A DNA stretch of 12,794 nt. It comes from an uncultured Gemmatimonadota bacterium (GTDB lineage: Bacteria; Gemmatimonadota; Gemmatimonadetes; Gemmatimonadales; Gemmatimonadaceae). Positions within the stretch are counted from its first letter, which is position 1, and the number at the start of each line of letters is the position of its first letter. The stretch spans positions 1 through 12,794 of the forward strand of contig CAMPKM010000046.1 of NCBI GenBank assembly GCA_946887155.1, given 5' to 3'. A program made the position numbers and the translations under genes. Positions 4,967 through 11,942 of the stretch are shown here, piece after piece. The notes below the pieces were generated by a model. It did not search any database. It saw nothing but the letters and a program-made list of their open reading frames with translations, and was not told the origin of the DNA.

Positions 4967-5425
4967 CTATTCGGCAGTAGGAAGACCCTTCGTACTCAGC
5001 GCTGACACGATCCGCTCGCGCTGCCGGGCATCGGCCTTGTTGAACGTCACCCACATGTTGAACACGAAGGCCAACGCGCCCGCGGTGAACATCGTTCCGC
5101 CGAGCGCGGTAATCCACGAGCCGCGCATTCCATAGTGGGGCGTGGCAAAGAAGCCAGCCACCATCGCGGCAAGCCCGAGGTTCGCAAGCCACCAATGCGC
5201 TTCAGCCAGCCGGCGGCTGTGCAGCGCGAAGCCGAACAGCCGCGGCAGCAACTGGTAGCCGACACCGAACACCATCATGGTGATGAACCCGGCCACCATC
5301 ATGTGAGCGTGGGCCGGTCGATAGATCACCCACGGCGGGTGCATCGCCATCGCGAGTCCCATCACGAGGCCGAGCCCGAACCACACCAGGCTCGACCGGA
5401 TGAATGCCTTGATGAACCATTCCAT
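4967..5425 (-). CDS. Short four-helix protein related to heme-copper oxidase subunit I
   Basis: A 152-residue membrane protein, last gene of the nos operon. It starts 12 bases after the cupredoxin stop, with AGGA about 7 bases before its ATG. Four hydrophobic segments are visible at about residues 8-28, 41-65, 78-98 and 103-127. The second begins AHAHMMVAGF and continues VFGVGYQLLPRLFG, the pattern seen around a heme-ligand helix in NorB/cbb3-type subunit I relatives. Full heme-copper subunits have about 12 helices and about 450 or more residues, so this is only a fragment-sized relative and cannot house a complete binuclear centre. The two histidines of the AHAH motif could ligate a heme, but that is inference. 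Its place in the operon suggests electron transfer from quinol or cytochrome toward NosZ, or help in copper or heme handling. It appears intact, not a decayed gene, because its start, helices and stop are tidy. Confidence 0.75.
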   Translation of the reverse strand: MEWFIKAFIRSSLVWFGLGLVMGLAMAMHPPWVIYRPAHAHMMVAGFITMMVFGVGYQLLPRLFGFALHSRRLAEAHWWLANLGLAAMVAGFFATPHYGMRGSWITALGGTMFTAGALAFVFNMWVTFNKADARQRERIVSALSTKGLPTAE

Positions 5426-5437
5426 GCTCGATCCTGC

Positions 5438-5854
5438 TTACTTGACGTTCAATTGCGCCTTCATACCAAGAGCCGCATGCGGATCGCAGTGGAACTGGTA
5501 CGTGCCCGGCCGCATGCTTATGGGCAGGTCGTATTCCTGACCCGGAAGCTGCAGGAAGTCGCTGGACTCCGGCAAGCCGTCCTTCCCGCTGTTGATGCTG
5601 TCCGGGAAACTGACATTATGCACGCCAGTCTTGAGCGTGAAGCGGATGACATCGCCACGCGACGCATCGATCGTCGACGGGCTGAAGTAGCTCCCCTTTT
5701 CGTCAGTGATCATGTAAACCGTGATGATCTTGCCCGTTGGCTGGATGTCCGCAGCACCAGCCGTTGGCGCTGGTGTGGAACCTGCTCCTTCGCTGCCGCC
5801 GCAGGCGACCACAGAAAGGGTGGCAAGGGTACAGAAGATGTAAGCGTATTTCAT
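5438..5854 (-). CDS. Type-1 copper cupredoxin lipoprotein (plastocyanin/azurin-like)
   Basis: A 138-residue protein chosen from ATG 5854, because it then starts with a clean lipoprotein signal (MKYAYIFCTLATLSVVAC, lipid Cys at 18). The open frame runs much further upstream but there overlaps nosY. After a Gly/Ser/Ala/Pro linker comes one cupredoxin domain (about 40-138). The four expected type-1 copper ligands are visible: H79 in GVHNVSFP, C123 and H126 in FHCDPHAALGM, and M131. It should be anchored outside the cytoplasmic membrane and shuttle single electrons. The gene starts 17 bases after the nosY stop, with no evident Shine-Dalgarno sequence, so translation may be coupled. In this setting it is a candidate electron donor to NosZ, or to the NirK-like protein encoded nearby; a copper-carrier role is the alternative. 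Confidence 0.88.
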   Translation of the reverse strand: MKYAYIFCTLATLSVVACGGSEGAGSTPAPTAGAADIQPTGKIITVYMITDEKGSYFSPSTIDASRGDVIRFTLKTGVHNVSFPDSINSGKDGLPESSDFLQLPGQEYDLPISMRPGTYQFHCDPHAALGMKAQLNVK

Positions 5855-5871: not shown

Positions 5872-6660
5872 TTAGAAGTCTTTGCGATGAAAGAGCCGGG
5901 CGCCGAGAAGCGCCGGCAGAGCGGTCCAGGCCAGAAACACGGTCAGGGCGATCGCCAGGCCCGTGGCGCCGCCTAACAGCTGCTGGAACAACGCGCCGGT
6001 GTAGCCGAGCAGCGCAGCCACATCGAATCGGGTGAGCATGACGAGTCGGGCCAGGTCGATCGGGTTGGCGAACATCGCCGCCAGCATCGGCCGCTCGATC
6101 GGGTACTCGGCAAGCCGCGTGGCGGCCATGATGACGACGGCGTCGTAGACGACGGCAAGGAGGAGCCATGTGCCGATCGCGGCCACGATGCCGCGGACAC
6201 GATCCTCGAATCCATACGCGACCACCGCGCCAATGCCGGTGAATACCGCGCCTAACGCCGTCGCCATCACGGCCAGCATGGCGCCTTCGGCGAGCGTCTC
6301 GCGCGCTGCACCCATGGCCACCAGCGGCACGCCAATCCCGGCCACGACCGCCAGGGACACCGGCGCCGTCAGGCCGAGGTAGAGTCCCGAGAAGAGCTGT
6401 CGCCGCCGGATGGGTTGTGCCAGCAGCAGCTCGACGAACTCGCGACTCGATTGCAGGTACATCGTGCCGAACACCACGTTGGCCAGCGGCACGATGAGCA
6501 GTACCACATTCACGAGGCTCAGCATGGCCTTCGCCTCGTTGTCGCTGAATTGGAGCAGCGCAAAGGTCGCCACCAGGAAGAATGCGGCATACGCCGCCAG
6601 CCATCGGCTGCGCATGAGATCCCGGACCGCATACTTCGCGATTCGCAATGTGGTGTTCAT
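5872..6660 (-). CDS. nosY: NosY-like ABC transporter permease
   Basis: A 262-residue protein with about six hydrophobic helices, spaced as in ABC-2 type NosY permeases (for example WLAAYAAFFLVATFALLQF near residue 20, and a C-terminal helix ending GLAIALTVFLAWTALPALLG). Conserved NosY-type segments include VFGTMYLQSSREFVELLLAQPIRRRQ. Its ATG overlaps the nosF stop (ATGA), and GGAGG lies about 10 bases upstream. With NosF and NosD it forms the NosDFY complex, which supplies what is needed to build the copper centres of N2O reductase on the outer face of the membrane (known for Pseudomonas stutzeri; sulfur species or copper handling). The leucine codon TTA occurs twice here, each time before GGC. 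Confidence 0.92.
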   Translation of the reverse strand: MNTTLRIAKYAVRDLMRSRWLAAYAAFFLVATFALLQFSDNEAKAMLSLVNVVLLIVPLANVVFGTMYLQSSREFVELLLAQPIRRRQLFSGLYLGLTAPVSLAVVAGIGVPLVAMGAARETLAEGAMLAVMATALGAVFTGIGAVVAYGFEDRVRGIVAAIGTWLLLAVVYDAVVIMAATRLAEYPIERPMLAAMFANPIDLARLVMLTRFDVAALLGYTGALFQQLLGGATGLAIALTVFLAWTALPALLGARLFHRKDF

Positions 6661-7364
6661 GCGGCCGCTTCCTCCATGAACGAGGCTACCGCCCGTTCGA
6701 GGCTGAGCTGGCGCGTCAAGCGCTTGAGGTCCACCACGGGCCCCGAATAGCGGACTCGCCCCTCGCAGAGGAGGACGACATTATCCGATACCTCATCGAG
6801 CTCGCTCATCACGTGCGACGTCACGATGAACGTTCGGCCGGACGCCCTTTCGGCGCTGATCTTGTCCTTCAGGACGGTGCTCGACGCCGGGTCGAGGCCA
6901 GCGGTCGGCTCGTCGAGGATGAGGATCGAGGGTGCGAACAGGAACGCGAGCGCGGCGTTGATCTTCTGGCGCGTGCCCCCGGAGAGCACCCGCAGCGGCT
7001 TCTCGAGGTGGCCCCGAAGCCCTAACGATTCGACCAGCTCGAGGTCGCGGGCTGGCGCCTGGCGCAGGTCGGCCATCATCGCCAGCAGGTCGGCGCCCGT
7101 CAGGTTCTCAGGGTACCGGGCAATCTGTGGCATGTACCCGATCGCGGCGCGCCATGAAACGTCGGCGTTCACCTTCTTCCCGTCGATGACGACTTCACCT
7201 TCGTCGGCACGCGTCAGGCCAAGCACGGTCTTGATCAGCGTGGTCTTGCCGGCACTGTTGGGACCGACGATGGCGGTGACGCAGCCAGCGTAAAGGTCCA
7301 GGTCCACGCCATCGAGCACCTGCAGCGCGCCAAACCGCTTGCGAATTCCCGCGAGCTTGATCAT
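6657..7364 (-). CDS. nosF: NosF-like ABC transporter ATPase
   Basis: A 235-residue ABC ATPase. Walker A is GPNSAGKTT (K40), with Ser in the place usually held by Gly. The signature is LSGGTRQK, Walker B with catalytic Glu is ILILDEPTAGLDP, and the H-loop is TSHVMSELDEV. Length and motifs match NosF. The start ATG overlaps the nosD stop (ATGA) and is preceded by GGAGG at a good distance; its own stop overlaps the nosY start in the same way. It acts in the cytoplasm and powers the NosY permease during maturation of N2O reductase. The Walker A Ser substitution is mild and should not abolish activity. The C-terminal tail (RYSGPVVDLKRLTRQLSLE) follows a common ABC-ATPase extension. Confidence 0.95.
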   Translation of the reverse strand: MIKLAGIRKRFGALQVLDGVDLDLYAGCVTAIVGPNSAGKTTLIKTVLGLTRADEGEVVIDGKKVNADVSWRAAIGYMPQIARYPENLTGADLLAMMADLRQAPARDLELVESLGLRGHLEKPLRVLSGGTRQKINAALAFLFAPSILILDEPTAGLDPASSTVLKDKISAERASGRTFIVTSHVMSELDEVSDNVVLLCEGRVRYSGPVVDLKRLTRQLSLERAVASFMEEAAA

Positions 7365-8590
7365 CTCGGCCTCCGCATCAGCGGCGCAGTGTCCGCGAGC
7401 GTTTCAGGAGTCAGCGACGGAAGCAGCCGCTCCGACTTGTCGAGCAGCGAGACGACCGCGCTTCGCAGGAGCACGAGCAGCGGTTCGTTCTGCTCAACGA
7501 CGAGCGTAAAGAGGCGCACCGGCCGGTGTGGCACGTCGCCGCGCCCATCGCGATCGATATCGTAGCCCTCGTACTGGTCCCAGTAATTGCCGCTCAGGGT
7601 GGCGCCGCTCGACCGGCTGTTGGTGGCGAGGTCGAACGTGTTCCCGACGAACGTGTTGCCGGACAGCGTGGCACCCTGCGTACTCGCCATGAGCTTCACG
7701 GCCCAGCCGTTGCTCGCGAAGACGTTGTCGCGAGCGATCATCCGCGTCGCGCCGTCCGCGAGCAGCCCGGTCGTATTGCGCGTGAACCTGTTCCGTTCGA
7801 GCCGGCTATCGCTGATTTCCTTGAGCAGCAACCCGTAGGCGGCAGGTCCCCAGTTGTCGGCAAACACATTGTCGGTCATGGTGACGCGCTTCGTGTACAT
7901 CACGGCCACGCCCGCCTGGTTGCCGCGAAACTCGTTGCGCGCGTACGTGCAATCGTCGGAGTACATGAAGTGCAGCCCGTACCGCACGTTCTGCTCGCTG
8001 ACATTTCCCGACACATGGGCACCGTGCGTGAACTCGAGGTAGACCCCATCGCGGTGACCGGTGATGCGATTGTCGAGGACGTCGACGTCGCGCGCTGTCC
8101 AGAGATGAATCCCGTTCCCGGAACGATCCTCGGTGGTGCCATGGCTTCGGAGCACGTTGCGGGCAATCCGGCAGCCGGAGCTCCCGGCCAGGTAGATCCC
8201 GAAGAAGACGTTCTCGATGCGATTGTCCTCGGCGACGCAGCGTCGCACCGCGCCAACCCGCAGGGCAGCCCGATCCTCAACGTGACTCGGCCCCACGTTC
8301 CGGAACGTGAGACCGCGGACGGTGACATCGTCCGCCTCCACGCGCATGATATGCGTGGCATTCGCGCCGTCGAGTACGGCGCCGGGTTCGCCGACGATCG
8401 TGAGCGGACGATCGATGACGATGGTCGGTTCGCGATAAATGCCGCGAGCAATCACGACCTGGTCGAACGCTCGTGCCGTTCGAACGGCCTCGGCGATGGT
8501 CAACGGGCCGCCCGGCTGCACGGTGACGACGCGTTGTGCTTCCGCGACGAGTGGCAGGCAAAGCATGACCACGAGTCCCCTAACGAACAT
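7361..8590 (-). CDS. nosD: NosD periplasmic copper-maturation protein
   Basis: A 409-residue protein from ATG 8590. The start is supported by a Sec signal peptide (MFVRGLVVMLCLPLVAEA, cleavage before QRVV) and by GGAG six bases upstream; the open frame extends further but there overlaps the upstream gene. The mature part is a run of right-handed beta-helix (CASH/PbH1-type) repeats, with the recurrent pattern G-x-x-x-x-x-x-x-N-x-I/V (DNRITGHRDGVYLEF, ARNEFRGNQAGVAVMYT, RNRFTRNTTGLLAD, SGNYWDQYEGYDIDRDGRGD). The last of these is a hallmark of NosD. It works with NosF and NosY to mature NosZ outside the cytoplasm. The gene overlaps the upstream NosL-fusion stop by 11 bases, implying translational coupling. 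Confidence 0.95.
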   Translation of the reverse strand: MFVRGLVVMLCLPLVAEAQRVVTVQPGGPLTIAEAVRTARAFDQVVIARGIYREPTIVIDRPLTIVGEPGAVLDGANATHIMRVEADDVTVRGLTFRNVGPSHVEDRAALRVGAVRRCVAEDNRIENVFFGIYLAGSSGCRIARNVLRSHGTTEDRSGNGIHLWTARDVDVLDNRITGHRDGVYLEFTHGAHVSGNVSEQNVRYGLHFMYSDDCTYARNEFRGNQAGVAVMYTKRVTMTDNVFADNWGPAAYGLLLKEISDSRLERNRFTRNTTGLLADGATRMIARDNVFASNGWAVKLMASTQGATLSGNTFVGNTFDLATNSRSSGATLSGNYWDQYEGYDIDRDGRGDVPHRPVRLFTLVVEQNEPLLVLLRSAVVSLLDKSERLLPSLTPETLADTAPLMRRPR

Positions 8591-9521
8591 GACCGGCTCC
8601 GTATGAAACGGCCGTGCCCATCGGGGGACGCAGCGTGGCGTCATGATCCACAACGGTGGCCGCTTCCATTGCGATGAGCGTGCCCGGCGCCGCCGCGTCG
8701 ACCACCCACGTCTCGCGAACCGCGGGAGAATCCGGCCGCGCCGAATACGCGCGAAGGCAGTCGATCGAATCGAAGGTGAGCGTGCGCCCATGTTCGGTGA
8801 CCACGAGCGCACCGAAACGCCGGTCGCTCACGATCATCCGGCATTCCTCGCAGGCTGCGTGATCAAACGCGATGGATGGATTCCCGGCGCAGGCAGCGGC
8901 CGCCAGCGAGAGTGCCGCTGCGCCGCTGCGCAATCGGCGATAGGACACGCCGATGGCACCTAACGCGATGGCAAACGACAGGCCGGCCAGCAATCCACCG
9001 GCCGCCGGCAGGGATGTCGCCCTGAAGTTGAGCAACTGCTTCGTGCCGATCAGCGGCGGCTGATACGACATGCCCGGCACGACGATGATCGCGTTCTCGA
9101 AATCGAGATCGTGCCCATAGTCGTAACTCCACCGCCAGAAGTCGTACAAACCGGCGACGCCGAGCAGGGCGAATCCGGCTGTCCACGCAACGAGCAGCCG
9201 CCGGCGCCCTGTCACGGCGACGAGCATGCCGGCGGCGATGAGGCCGGCCGCGATCCACGGCATGTACTGCAGTTCGGGGATCGCGTCCGGCTCGATCGGC
9301 TTCATGCCGATGTAGTGATTGAGCGAGTTGATGTTGCGAAGATCATGTTCCTTCATCCCCTCGATGGTGTTGAGGCGGATGTGCATCCCGATGCCTTCGG
9401 GATACTGCGGCGCGACCAGTCGCACGCTCCACAACGGTGCCACGAACACCGCGCCGAGCAGTACCACCGCGACGGCCAGCATCGCGCGAGCGCTGTGAGG
9501 CATGCGACTGGTGGCGCGCAT
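8580..9521 (-). CDS. Membrane protein (NosB-like?) fused to a NosL copper-chaperone domain
   Basis: A 313-residue protein whose ATG shares a base with the nosZ stop (TAATG). Residues 1-192 form a membrane protein: helices at about 11-33, 88-106, 108-128 and 168-192. An extracytoplasmic loop carries APQYPEGIGM and LNHYIGMKPIEP. I recall these motifs from the uncharacterised membrane protein (NosB) next to nosZ in clade II clusters, but cannot verify it. From residue about 192 the chain looks like a complete NosL lipoprotein. V192 is encoded by GTG, then comes YRRLRSGAAALSLAAAAC, a good lipoprotein signal with C211. NosL's metal-binding motif CEECRM (C224, C227, M229) follows, then TLTFDSIDCLRAY. 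The frame is continuous. Either it is one fused chain, with the old signal acting as a membrane helix, or a separate NosL is also made from the GTG at 8948. NosL delivers Cu(I) to NosZ. Confidence 0.82.
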   Translation of the reverse strand: MRATSRMPHSARAMLAVAVVLLGAVFVAPLWSVRLVAPQYPEGIGMHIRLNTIEGMKEHDLRNINSLNHYIGMKPIEPDAIPELQYMPWIAAGLIAAGMLVAVTGRRRLLVAWTAGFALLGVAGLYDFWRWSYDYGHDLDFENAIIVVPGMSYQPPLIGTKQLLNFRATSLPAAGGLLAGLSFAIALGAIGVSYRRLRSGAAALSLAAAACAGNPSIAFDHAACEECRMIVSDRRFGALVVTEHGRTLTFDSIDCLRAYSARPDSPAVRETWVVDAAAPGTLIAMEAATVVDHDATLRPPMGTAVSYGAGHVR

Positions 9522-11530
9522 TACTTCTGTCCCTCCACCGCGCGAGCGCGTTCCAGTTGCGTCGCGGCTTTCTTGCTGATCGTGGCCTCGAGCGCGACGT
9601 TTGATCCACGCGGCGAGACGCGGAGGTAACCCGACATTTCCTGGTGCAGCGCCGAGCAGAAGTCGGTGCAGTAGAACGGATAGATCTGCGCTTTCTTCGC
9701 GACCCACCTGAGCGTCCGGGTTTCGCCGGGCTGCATGATCAATTCGGCATTTTCGCCGCCAAGGATCGCGAAACCGTGAAGGATGTCCCAGTCCTGCTCG
9801 ATGTTGGTGACGTGGAAATAGACCGTGTCACCCTCTTCCACACCCTGGATGTTGTCGGGCGCGAAGTGGCTGCGGATGGCGATCATGTTGACGTCCACGC
9901 GACGGCCGGTCCGTTTGATGCCGGTTTCCGACTCGGCGCGCGCCACGTGCGGGTGCGTGCTTTCCGCGAGCGAGAAGTACTTCACCTGCTTGTCCTTGAT
10001 CAGGCTCGCCGGAATGGCCTGCGCGTAGTGTGGCTCGCCGAACGTCGGAAAATCGAGCAGCAGCTTCATCTTGTCGCCGCTGATGTCGAACAGTTGCGCG
10101 GACTGCGTGAGTTCAGCGCCCGTCGGCAGGTAGCGATCCTTGGTGATCTTGTTCATGGCCACGAGGTACTTGCCGTACGGTTCCTTGCTGTCGCCGCCGG
10201 GAATCATGAGGTGGCCAATCGAGTAGTACGTCGGGACGCGATCGACGACTTCCCAGGTGCCCAGCTTCCACTTCACGACCTCGGACGAGATGAACATCGA
10301 GGTGTAGGCGTATCCCTTGCCGTCGAACTCCGTGTGCAGTGCGCCGAGGCCCGGCTTCTGGACTTCGGCCGCCATGACGGCGTCGTATTTCAGGACCGGG
10401 ATTCCCTCGACCGTCGCCTCGAAGTCCTGGTTGGCGATGGCCTTCTGCATCTTGCTGAACGAGTGCACCGGGATGTTGGCGGCGAGCTTGCCGCTGGCCA
10501 CGATGTATTCACCACTCGGATCGACGTCGACGCCGTGCGGTGACTTCGGCGTGGGCAGGTAGTAGACGAGTCCCGGACAGTCCGCCGGGTTGAGCATCTT
10601 CACCGACGTGCGGGCTTCCGAACGCGCCGAGCGCGATTTCTCGTCCATCCAGTTGTGGAAGTAGCGCGCGTTGACGGTCTGCGCCTTTCCGTTCGCGACG
10701 CACTGTTCCGCCTGCCGGAAGTTCAACGCTGCGATAAAGTCCTTGTCGTTCTGGGAAGCGTTCTCCTCGAGCTTTGTCCACGCGCGTTCCGAGTTGTATG
10801 TCGTGAAGAAGAACCATCCTTCGGAGGGGCCCTTGCCGGCGTGGCCGAGGTCGTAATTGAAGCCGGGCATCAGGATCTGGAACGCGACGTCCATCTTCCC
10901 GGGCTGGTCGGCGGTGATGAACGAGATCGTGCCGCGGAAGTTCTGCCCAAAGGTCTCGATGGGGACGTCCTTGTTCGGGATCGGCACACTGAAGCGCGTC
11001 GCCGAGACGATGTACTTGCCGTCGGGGGTGGTGAACGGGCTAGCGTGTCCGCCGGCGGCGTTAGGCAGCTCGAGGATTTCCTCGGTCTCGAACCGTGTCA
11101 GCTCGATGCGCGCGACCCGCGGCGTGTTGTTGCCGTTGATGAAGAGCCAGCGGCCGTCGGGGACGCCGTTGGTCTGGGAGAGTTCGGTGTGGTGGGTATC
11201 GTCCCACGGCACGAAGCCATAGCTCGTCTGGAGCATCGGCTTGGTTTCCTCGTTGTAGCCCCAGCCGTTCTCCGCGTGCTGCGAGAAGACCGGGATGAGC
11301 TTGAGCATGCGGCCGGACGGCAGGCCGTAAACGCTCACCTGGCCATTGAATCCGCCGGAGAGGAAGGCGTAGTACTCGTCATGCGCGCCGGGAGCGACAT
11401 AGACCCGGCCGGCGGCGTCGCCGGTGGCGAGGTTGGGGGCCGTGGTGCGGCAGGAAAACCCGAGGGCGGCGAGGGCGATCGCGCCTGCGATCGTCCCGCT
11501 GCGTACCAGGGTTCGGCGATTGATCGGCAT
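9521..11530 (-). CDS. nosZ: Nitrous-oxide reductase NosZ
   Basis: A 669-residue copper enzyme reducing N2O to N2 outside the cytoplasm. The N-terminal beta-propeller shows histidine motifs for the CuZ cluster: DDTHHTELSQ (H113, H114), GGHASPF, SPHGVDVDPSGEYI, EPHYAQAI and ESTHPHVARAES. The C-terminal cupredoxin domain carries the CuA site CTDFCSALHQEMSGY (C621, C625, H629, M632). ATG 11530 has GAGGTC just upstream and begins a signal peptide, MPINRRTLVRSGTIAG, then a hydrophobic stretch ending LGFSC. The paired arginines recall a Tat signal, while the final Cys could be a weak lipobox. The absence of nosR and the company of a NosB-like protein suggest clade II, whose members usually use Sec, so the export route is unclear. 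It starts 7 bases after the Rrf2 stop and ends in the start codon of the NosL fusion. Confidence 0.97.
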   Translation of the reverse strand: MPINRRTLVRSGTIAGAIALAALGFSCRTTAPNLATGDAAGRVYVAPGAHDEYYAFLSGGFNGQVSVYGLPSGRMLKLIPVFSQHAENGWGYNEETKPMLQTSYGFVPWDDTHHTELSQTNGVPDGRWLFINGNNTPRVARIELTRFETEEILELPNAAGGHASPFTTPDGKYIVSATRFSVPIPNKDVPIETFGQNFRGTISFITADQPGKMDVAFQILMPGFNYDLGHAGKGPSEGWFFFTTYNSERAWTKLEENASQNDKDFIAALNFRQAEQCVANGKAQTVNARYFHNWMDEKSRSARSEARTSVKMLNPADCPGLVYYLPTPKSPHGVDVDPSGEYIVASGKLAANIPVHSFSKMQKAIANQDFEATVEGIPVLKYDAVMAAEVQKPGLGALHTEFDGKGYAYTSMFISSEVVKWKLGTWEVVDRVPTYYSIGHLMIPGGDSKEPYGKYLVAMNKITKDRYLPTGAELTQSAQLFDISGDKMKLLLDFPTFGEPHYAQAIPASLIKDKQVKYFSLAESTHPHVARAESETGIKRTGRRVDVNMIAIRSHFAPDNIQGVEEGDTVYFHVTNIEQDWDILHGFAILGGENAELIMQPGETRTLRWVAKKAQIYPFYCTDFCSALHQEMSGYLRVSPRGSNVALEATISKKAATQLERARAVEGQK

Positions 11531-11537
11531 GCTGACC

Positions 11538-11942
11538 TCAGAGTGGGGGTCGTGATGACACCAGTTCCGCGACCGTTGTTCGTGCCAGGAACGCGGACAT
11601 GGAGCTGGCAATGGGGGCCCAGCGCAGGTGCACCGGGCAATCGGGGTTCTGGCCGCAGGGGCCGGTGCCTAACAAGCAGTCGTGGGGGTGGGGCCGTTCG
11701 AACACCGCCGCGATGGCTGCCAGGGACACATCAGCCGCCCTTGGCGAAAGCGAATAGCCGCCGGCCGGTCCGCGCGTCGAGCGCAGGTAGCCGGCGTGCG
11801 TCAGTTGGCTCAGGATCTTGGCGAGATAGCGCGGCGGGGCGTCGACGGCCGATGCGACTTCCATCAGTCGCCGTGAGCGCGGTGCTTCACCAGCGATGTG
11901 AATGAAGGCGCGGAGCGCGTATTCGGTCGTTTGCGAGAACAC
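11538..11942 (-). CDS. Rrf2-family Fe-S regulator, NsrR-like
   Basis: A 134-residue protein starting at GTG 11942, chosen because the family begins with a motif like MFSQTTEYALRA at residue 1; no strong Shine-Dalgarno sequence is seen. The winged helix spans residues about 1-70 (ASAVDAPPRYLAKILSQLTH; wing RGPAGGYSLS). Three cysteines, C89, C96 and C102 (spacing C-x6-C-x5-C, CLLGTGPCGQNPDCPVH), match the Fe-S ligands of IscR/NsrR proteins. NsrR uses this cluster to sense NO. It is the first gene of the nos operon: its stop and the nosZ ribosome-binding site overlap, with only 7 bases between the genes. That makes autoregulation with the nos genes likely. NO-sensing is inferred from denitrification context; an IscR- or RirA-like role is the main alternative. 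It is divergent from the nirK-like gene. Confidence 0.9.
   Translation of the reverse strand: MFSQTTEYALRAFIHIAGEAPRSRRLMEVASAVDAPPRYLAKILSQLTHAGYLRSTRGPAGGYSLSPRAADVSLAAIAAVFERPHPHDCLLGTGPCGQNPDCPVHLRWAPIASSMSAFLARTTVAELVSSRPPL

Follow-up and report, generated by a model that had tools for sequence, protein, structure and literature searches.

The nosB-nosL fusion and its junction

On the minus strand of the window (the whole stretch of 12,794 nucleotides analyzed here, contig CAMPKM010000046.1 of assembly GCA_946887155.1 from an uncultured Gemmatimonadota bacterium) lies a clade II nos operon, in which an Rrf2-type regulator gene is followed by nosZ, nosB-nosL, nosD, a nosF-like gene and a nosY-like gene. 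The subject of this analysis is the fused nosB-nosL gene (8580..9521, minus strand), which was recognized from its open reading frame and its fused homologues and encodes a protein of 313 amino acids (P0001). It forms a single frame of 313 codons running from 9521 to 8580, and its start ATG overlaps the stop codon of nosZ and is preceded by GGAGG, a good Shine-Dalgarno (SD)-type site. A previous interpretation of this DNA, made from its letters alone (the sequence-only reading), had described one continuous frame in which NosL is fused to a nosZ-adjacent membrane protein; this is indeed what we found, the partner being NosB. Several of the papers cited below were available in part, and what is said of them refers to the available parts.

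The NosB domain (residues 1-194; 8940..9521, minus strand) has four predicted transmembrane (TM) helices according to an AlphaFold2 model and hydropathy, located in the model at residues 9-26, 82-104, 107-135 (hydrophobic part about 109-127) and 174-194. A polytopic membrane protein adjoining clade II nosZ is what the name NosB denotes in the accessible text of PMC11388526, where four or six TM segments are given. The motifs LNHYIGM (67-73) and YGHD (135-138) are present, the latter with N instead of D in the consensus of alignment A1, which agrees with the motifs LNHYIGM and YGHN described for the family in the available portion of PMC9697520. The same portion reports that NosB is essential to clade II N2O respiration in Wolinella and proposes roles in electron transport and possibly copper handling, fusion to NosL being taken as a hint of the latter.

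The NosL domain (residues 211-313; 8580..8891, minus strand) contains C224xxC227xM229, FD251, C255 and PMG at 300-302. Because its Pfam score in the window protein fell below the cut-off and NCBIfam gave no match, a sequence profile and structure were used for identification, and the C-terminal part shows the NosL fold and matches the profile. The copper motif CxxCxM is present, and its residues C224, C227 and M229 are invariant in alignment A1 and change one, zero and zero times, respectively, on a tree of 121 proteins. Considering this motif and the operon, the domain is predicted to bind Cu(I) and to take part in CuZ supply; the available part of PMC7558416 describes the NosL of other bacteria as a lipoprotein.

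Between the two domains lies an internal lipoprotein-type signal (residues 195-211; 8889..8939, minus strand), comprising an n-region (RRLR, 195-198), an Ala-rich h-region (199-210) and a lipobox (AAAA-C211) whose Cys codon TGC occupies 8889..8891 on the minus strand. Charge and hydropathy predict a topology for NosB with its N-terminus inside, four TM helices and its C-terminus inside, so the positive YRRLR and the short Ala-rich stretch would be arranged like an N-terminal lipoprotein signal, here placed after a membrane protein ending in the cytoplasm. The AlphaFold2 model has low confidence here (mean pLDDT of 55 at 201–210) and contains only a 10-residue helix at 202–211.

Conservation of this signal was examined in the window protein together with the best 120 of 2011 window homologues and 120 Bacteroidota-type fusions (the best 120 of 7995 homologues in a second list). 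Cys211 is present in 121/121 proteins of the former set and in 241/241 after the latter were added, so that the intact lipoprotein signal noticed at the junction by the sequence-only reading proves to be strongly conserved. While the linker in the alignment of 121 proteins varies in both letters and length, Cys211 is constant, showing no parsimony change on the 121-protein tree against a median of 29 for the other columns of 194–223, and it is kept in 66/66 members of a set thinned to <75% identity (down to 35–41% identity to the window protein). When 42 loci and the window again were added to the 241 proteins (284 rows, in which L023 and P0122 are the same protein), an [AGS]C pair was found in the linker of all 284 rows, including all 43 fused sequences with DNA (the 42 loci and the window); this pair was what the scan sought, but it is visible in the alignment as well. 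A PROSITE-like lipobox pattern matches 264 of the 284 rows, and the segment 12–32 residues before the lipobox Cys is net positive in 273. Judged from these sequences, the junction between NosB and NosL is under selection.

Operon context and distribution of fused and split genes

Upstream of the fused gene, nosZ (9521..11530; TIGR04246, 918 bits) encodes a clade II Sec-type nitrous oxide reductase and is preceded by the Rrf2-type regulator (11538–11942). Downstream, the start of nosD (7361..8590; TIGR04247, 418 bits) overlaps the end of the fusion and is followed by an ABC ATPase (6657..7364; PF00005) and an ABC permease (5872..6660; PF12679), named NosF-like and NosY-like from their positions. 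All of these genes, as well as two further ones downstream of the nosY-like gene, lie on the minus strand. The product of the first (5438-5854) is plastocyanin-like, has a lipobox-like VACGG of its own and is a possible electron donor; by-eye inspection of the loci L009, L028 and L040 showed similar proteins encoded downstream of the nosY-like gene there as well. The second (4967-5425) encodes a 152-aa membrane protein with a partial COX1/CcoN match (PF00115, 37.9 bits), too short to be a whole oxidase subunit I. PADLOC gave no match.

Full-length homologues of the fused protein reach 99% identity among the best 120 of 2011, and relatives occur in Gemmatimonadota, Balneolia, Rhodothermia, Cytophagia, Kapabacteria and other groups; a match was found in 132 of the 395 genomes of the phylum of the Gemmatimonadaceae metagenome-assembled genome G001. 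For comparison of gene arrangements, 80 of 117 relatives were kept as loci, to which the phylum matches (30 best, 72 more and 26 weaker) were added after leaving out second matches, places already in L002–L043 and the weakest matches. The 26 weaker matches were kept outside the tree and the counts; none of them has NosB fused to NosL, and none has a NosL match within the stretch, so the fusion is confined to nearer relatives. The same sequence is present twice in L019/L020, L009/L089, L028/L108 and L040/L158.

Among the resulting 183 sequences (182 loci and the window), nosB and nosL are fused in one frame in 43 and split in 111, and no NosL was found in 29, some of which come from stretches that end too early; rows without NosL are excluded from the fused and split counts. 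On a NosB tree of 182 of the 183 (one row, whose NosB match did not exceed 140 residues, was dropped), the minimum number of state changes is 22, or 8 when only branches with SH-aLRT >=95 are counted, a number that covers fusion and fission alike. Thus, as far as the tree can tell, fused and split nosB/nosL interchange repeatedly across clade II nos operons. The sequence-only reading had named separate genes in close relatives, with a frame difference traced to a sequencing error, as the observation that would overturn the fusion; however, the nearest proteins identified carry the fusion, and the split form is a natural variant seen in relatives further away. A frameshift or assembly artifact was also rejected because close homologues are fused and, in one relative (G134), the fusion is located on a contig that makes up 3.26 Mb of the 3.3 Mb genome.

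Other arrangements of nosB were observed as well. In Balneolia loci, including L030, L037, L039, L044, L051, L055 and L059, nosB is followed by a divergent NosL-like gene (18-44 bits) and then by a typical one. In L028 and L040, nosB is followed by nosD with no NosL found in between, and NosB is fused directly to NosD without NosL in three genomes, namely at L009:5923-7929 (plus strand; copy L089), L134:238-2193 (minus strand) and L138:265-2154 (plus strand), with TIGR04247 scores of 416–422 bits. Inspected by eye, the junction has a lipobox-like AVACAG in L009 and an AxA-type, signal-peptidase-I-like site in L134, and is less clear in L138. The distant NosB at L206:1066-2235 (minus strand) continues in the same frame into a lipobox-like SGGC and then roughly 135 residues, for which a Pfam search gave no match. 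The NosB–NosD fusions and L206 suggest that nosB tends to fuse to exported partners that retain their signals.

Possible fates of the fused protein

Two explanations for the junction had been offered by the sequence-only reading: that the fusion tethers NosL to its membrane partner, or that internal initiation at an in-frame GTG (V192; 8946..8948, minus strand) yields free lipoprotein NosL alongside the full fusion. The fusion to NosB and the junction signal on which both draw are supported, but internal initiation as a general mechanism is not. In the window itself, an AGGT (8958..8961, minus strand), a weak SD-like tetramer, does precede the GTG by 9 nt, a workable spacing, and the n-, h- and c-regions would suit a lipoprotein signal. 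Nevertheless, residue 192 is V in just 3 of the 28 closest proteins (window counted, among the best 120 of 2011), its column changes 35 times on the 121-protein tree, and nosB has its own good GGAGG. Start codons near the lipobox were compared with those of split genes, for which 109 of the 111 were used (L032 and L065 were excluded because no [AGS]C was found). An ATG lies 14–40 codons before the lipobox Cys in 14/43 fused sequences versus 97/109 split ones (group tests, p = 2e-7 and 2e-5), and no ATG, GTG or TTG lies there in 8/43 and 0/109, respectively. A start codon together with an SD-like motif is found in 5/43 fused versus 45/109 split sequences, although this difference is not significant inside the Gemmatimonadota group (4/26 versus 21/57, p = 0.07). 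Here the ‘Gem’ group comprises loci from L081 upward, the window and five hand-named loci, and the ‘Bact’ group all other loci of L001–L080. We discarded the argument that internal initiation is disproved by a linker devoid of start codons, as over the whole linker every ATG, GTG and TTG is absent in only 1/43 fused sequences; the 14–40 codon comparison with split genes is the fairer test. Fused genes have mostly lost the nosL-type start codon yet have kept the lipobox and, since the start codon is not conserved in them, internal initiation does not appear to be a conserved mechanism. Individual genes may differ, and it may occur in the Bacteroidota-type fusions L023, L024 and L026, which have an ATG or GTG 20 codons before the Cys. 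For the window gene, we consider initiation at GTG 8948 improbable.

Permanent fusion has a somewhat better claim but still seems unlikely to us. The junction segment would then be a fifth TM helix tethering NosL to NosB, with Cys211 either lipidated and left uncut or kept as a copper ligand or for a disulfide. Such a reading is consistent with the one reading frame and with the available portion of PMC9697520, which treats NosB-L as combining both functions. It is less easily reconciled with the A, G or S that precedes the Cys in every row, which a copper ligand would not need, or with the window stretch of just about 12 Ala-rich residues. Moreover, the distance from NosB to the Cys spans 21 to 90 residues among the 43 fused sequences, but that from the Cys to CxxC, wherever CxxC was found, is always 13–15. 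By itself, permanent tethering does not account for the invariance of the lipobox Cys. That the lipobox is a vestige, left by recent gene fusion and now functionless, is very improbable: fused and split sequences are neighbors in places on the tree, and some fusions may be young, but a vestige would not readily account for a Cys that never changes in the 121-protein set among columns that change so often.

We therefore favor, with reasonable though far from full confidence, a precursor model, in which NosB and NosL are made as one chain, lipidation takes place at the internal signal and a cut there probably follows, leaving NosB and free lipidated NosL. NosB would insert by its four TM helices, with its end left in the cytoplasm by the positive YRRLR, and the short hydrophobic stretch would serve as an internal type II (lipoprotein) signal peptide carrying NosL across the membrane. 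Cys211 would be lipidated by Lgt, LspA would probably cut before it to yield NosB and a membrane-anchored free NosL, and the latter could pass Cu(I) to NosDFY/NosZ. On the predicted topology, a cytoplasmic upstream C-terminus is followed by a conserved cleavage-type signal, as expected of a polyprotein, and Lgt and LspA genes were found in 8/8 relatives searched (seven with NosB–NosL and one with NosB–NosD).

Several points weigh against such processing. We infer topology, copper transfer and, from sequence features, lipidation and cleavage, and the model presumes that a signal preceded by four TM helices can be used by Lgt and LspA. The strict lipobox pattern [LVI][ASTVI][GAS]C matches just 120/284 rows and is failed by the AAAAC of the window; as so few rows fit, we dropped it as proof and used alignment columns instead. 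Fused sequences have a longer uncharged run ahead of the Cys (median 16) than split ones (median 13; p = 1e-5), a shift towards TM-helix length that would also be compatible with an additional role as a TM segment and thus with permanent fusion. In addition, the counts given above lack phylogenetic independence.

Known systems and implications

A precedent for a polyprotein of this kind is FbcH, the cytochrome b/c1 polyprotein of Bradyrhizobium, whose single gene specifies a polytopic membrane protein together with its exported partner and whose internal signal is cut; our literature search found nothing on it. FbcH is cut by signal peptidase I without lipidation, whereas a type II signal is proposed here. 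NosL is known as a Cu(I) lipoprotein chaperone (PDB 7og7, 7osf, 7znq), but the signal in the window protein lies behind four TM helices and is not N-terminal. The NosB–NosL fusion itself has already been published: the available portion of PMC9697520 describes NosB-L fusions in Flavobacterium and mentions Dyadobacter fermentans. The proteins of F. azooxidireducens and D. fermentans resemble that of the window, with the same domain order between nosZ and nosD and the motifs LNHYIGM and YGHN, although that portion has no account of a retained lipoprotein signal or of processing, and the window gene is from Gemmatimonadota. The NosB-NosC2 fusion in the available part of PMC11409646 likewise joins NosB to another nos component, but with a different partner.

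The new point is the conserved internal lipoprotein signal at the junction. Such a signal with processing in NosB–NosL was not found in the literature searched, which left out most subscription papers, and it is not mentioned in the available portions of PMC9697520, PMC11388526, PMC13068155, PMC7558416 and PMC11409646; the primary NosB papers (Hein 2017; van Spanning 2011) may mention it. We lean, somewhat more cautiously than for the window gene, towards the broader view that NosB–NosL and some NosB–NosD fusions are made as polyproteins and separated by signal peptidases, in a recurrent bacterial strategy whereby an internal Lgt/LspA signal releases a membrane partner and a lipidated copper chaperone in a 1:1 ratio. 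If the chain is cut, fusion would mean 1:1 co-synthesis and not a permanent tether, and the copper-handling argument for NosB would change. Lgt and LspA would then be able to act on internal signals preceded by four TM helices, and lipoprotein prediction from genomes would also be affected, because searches for N-terminal signals would miss internal ones.
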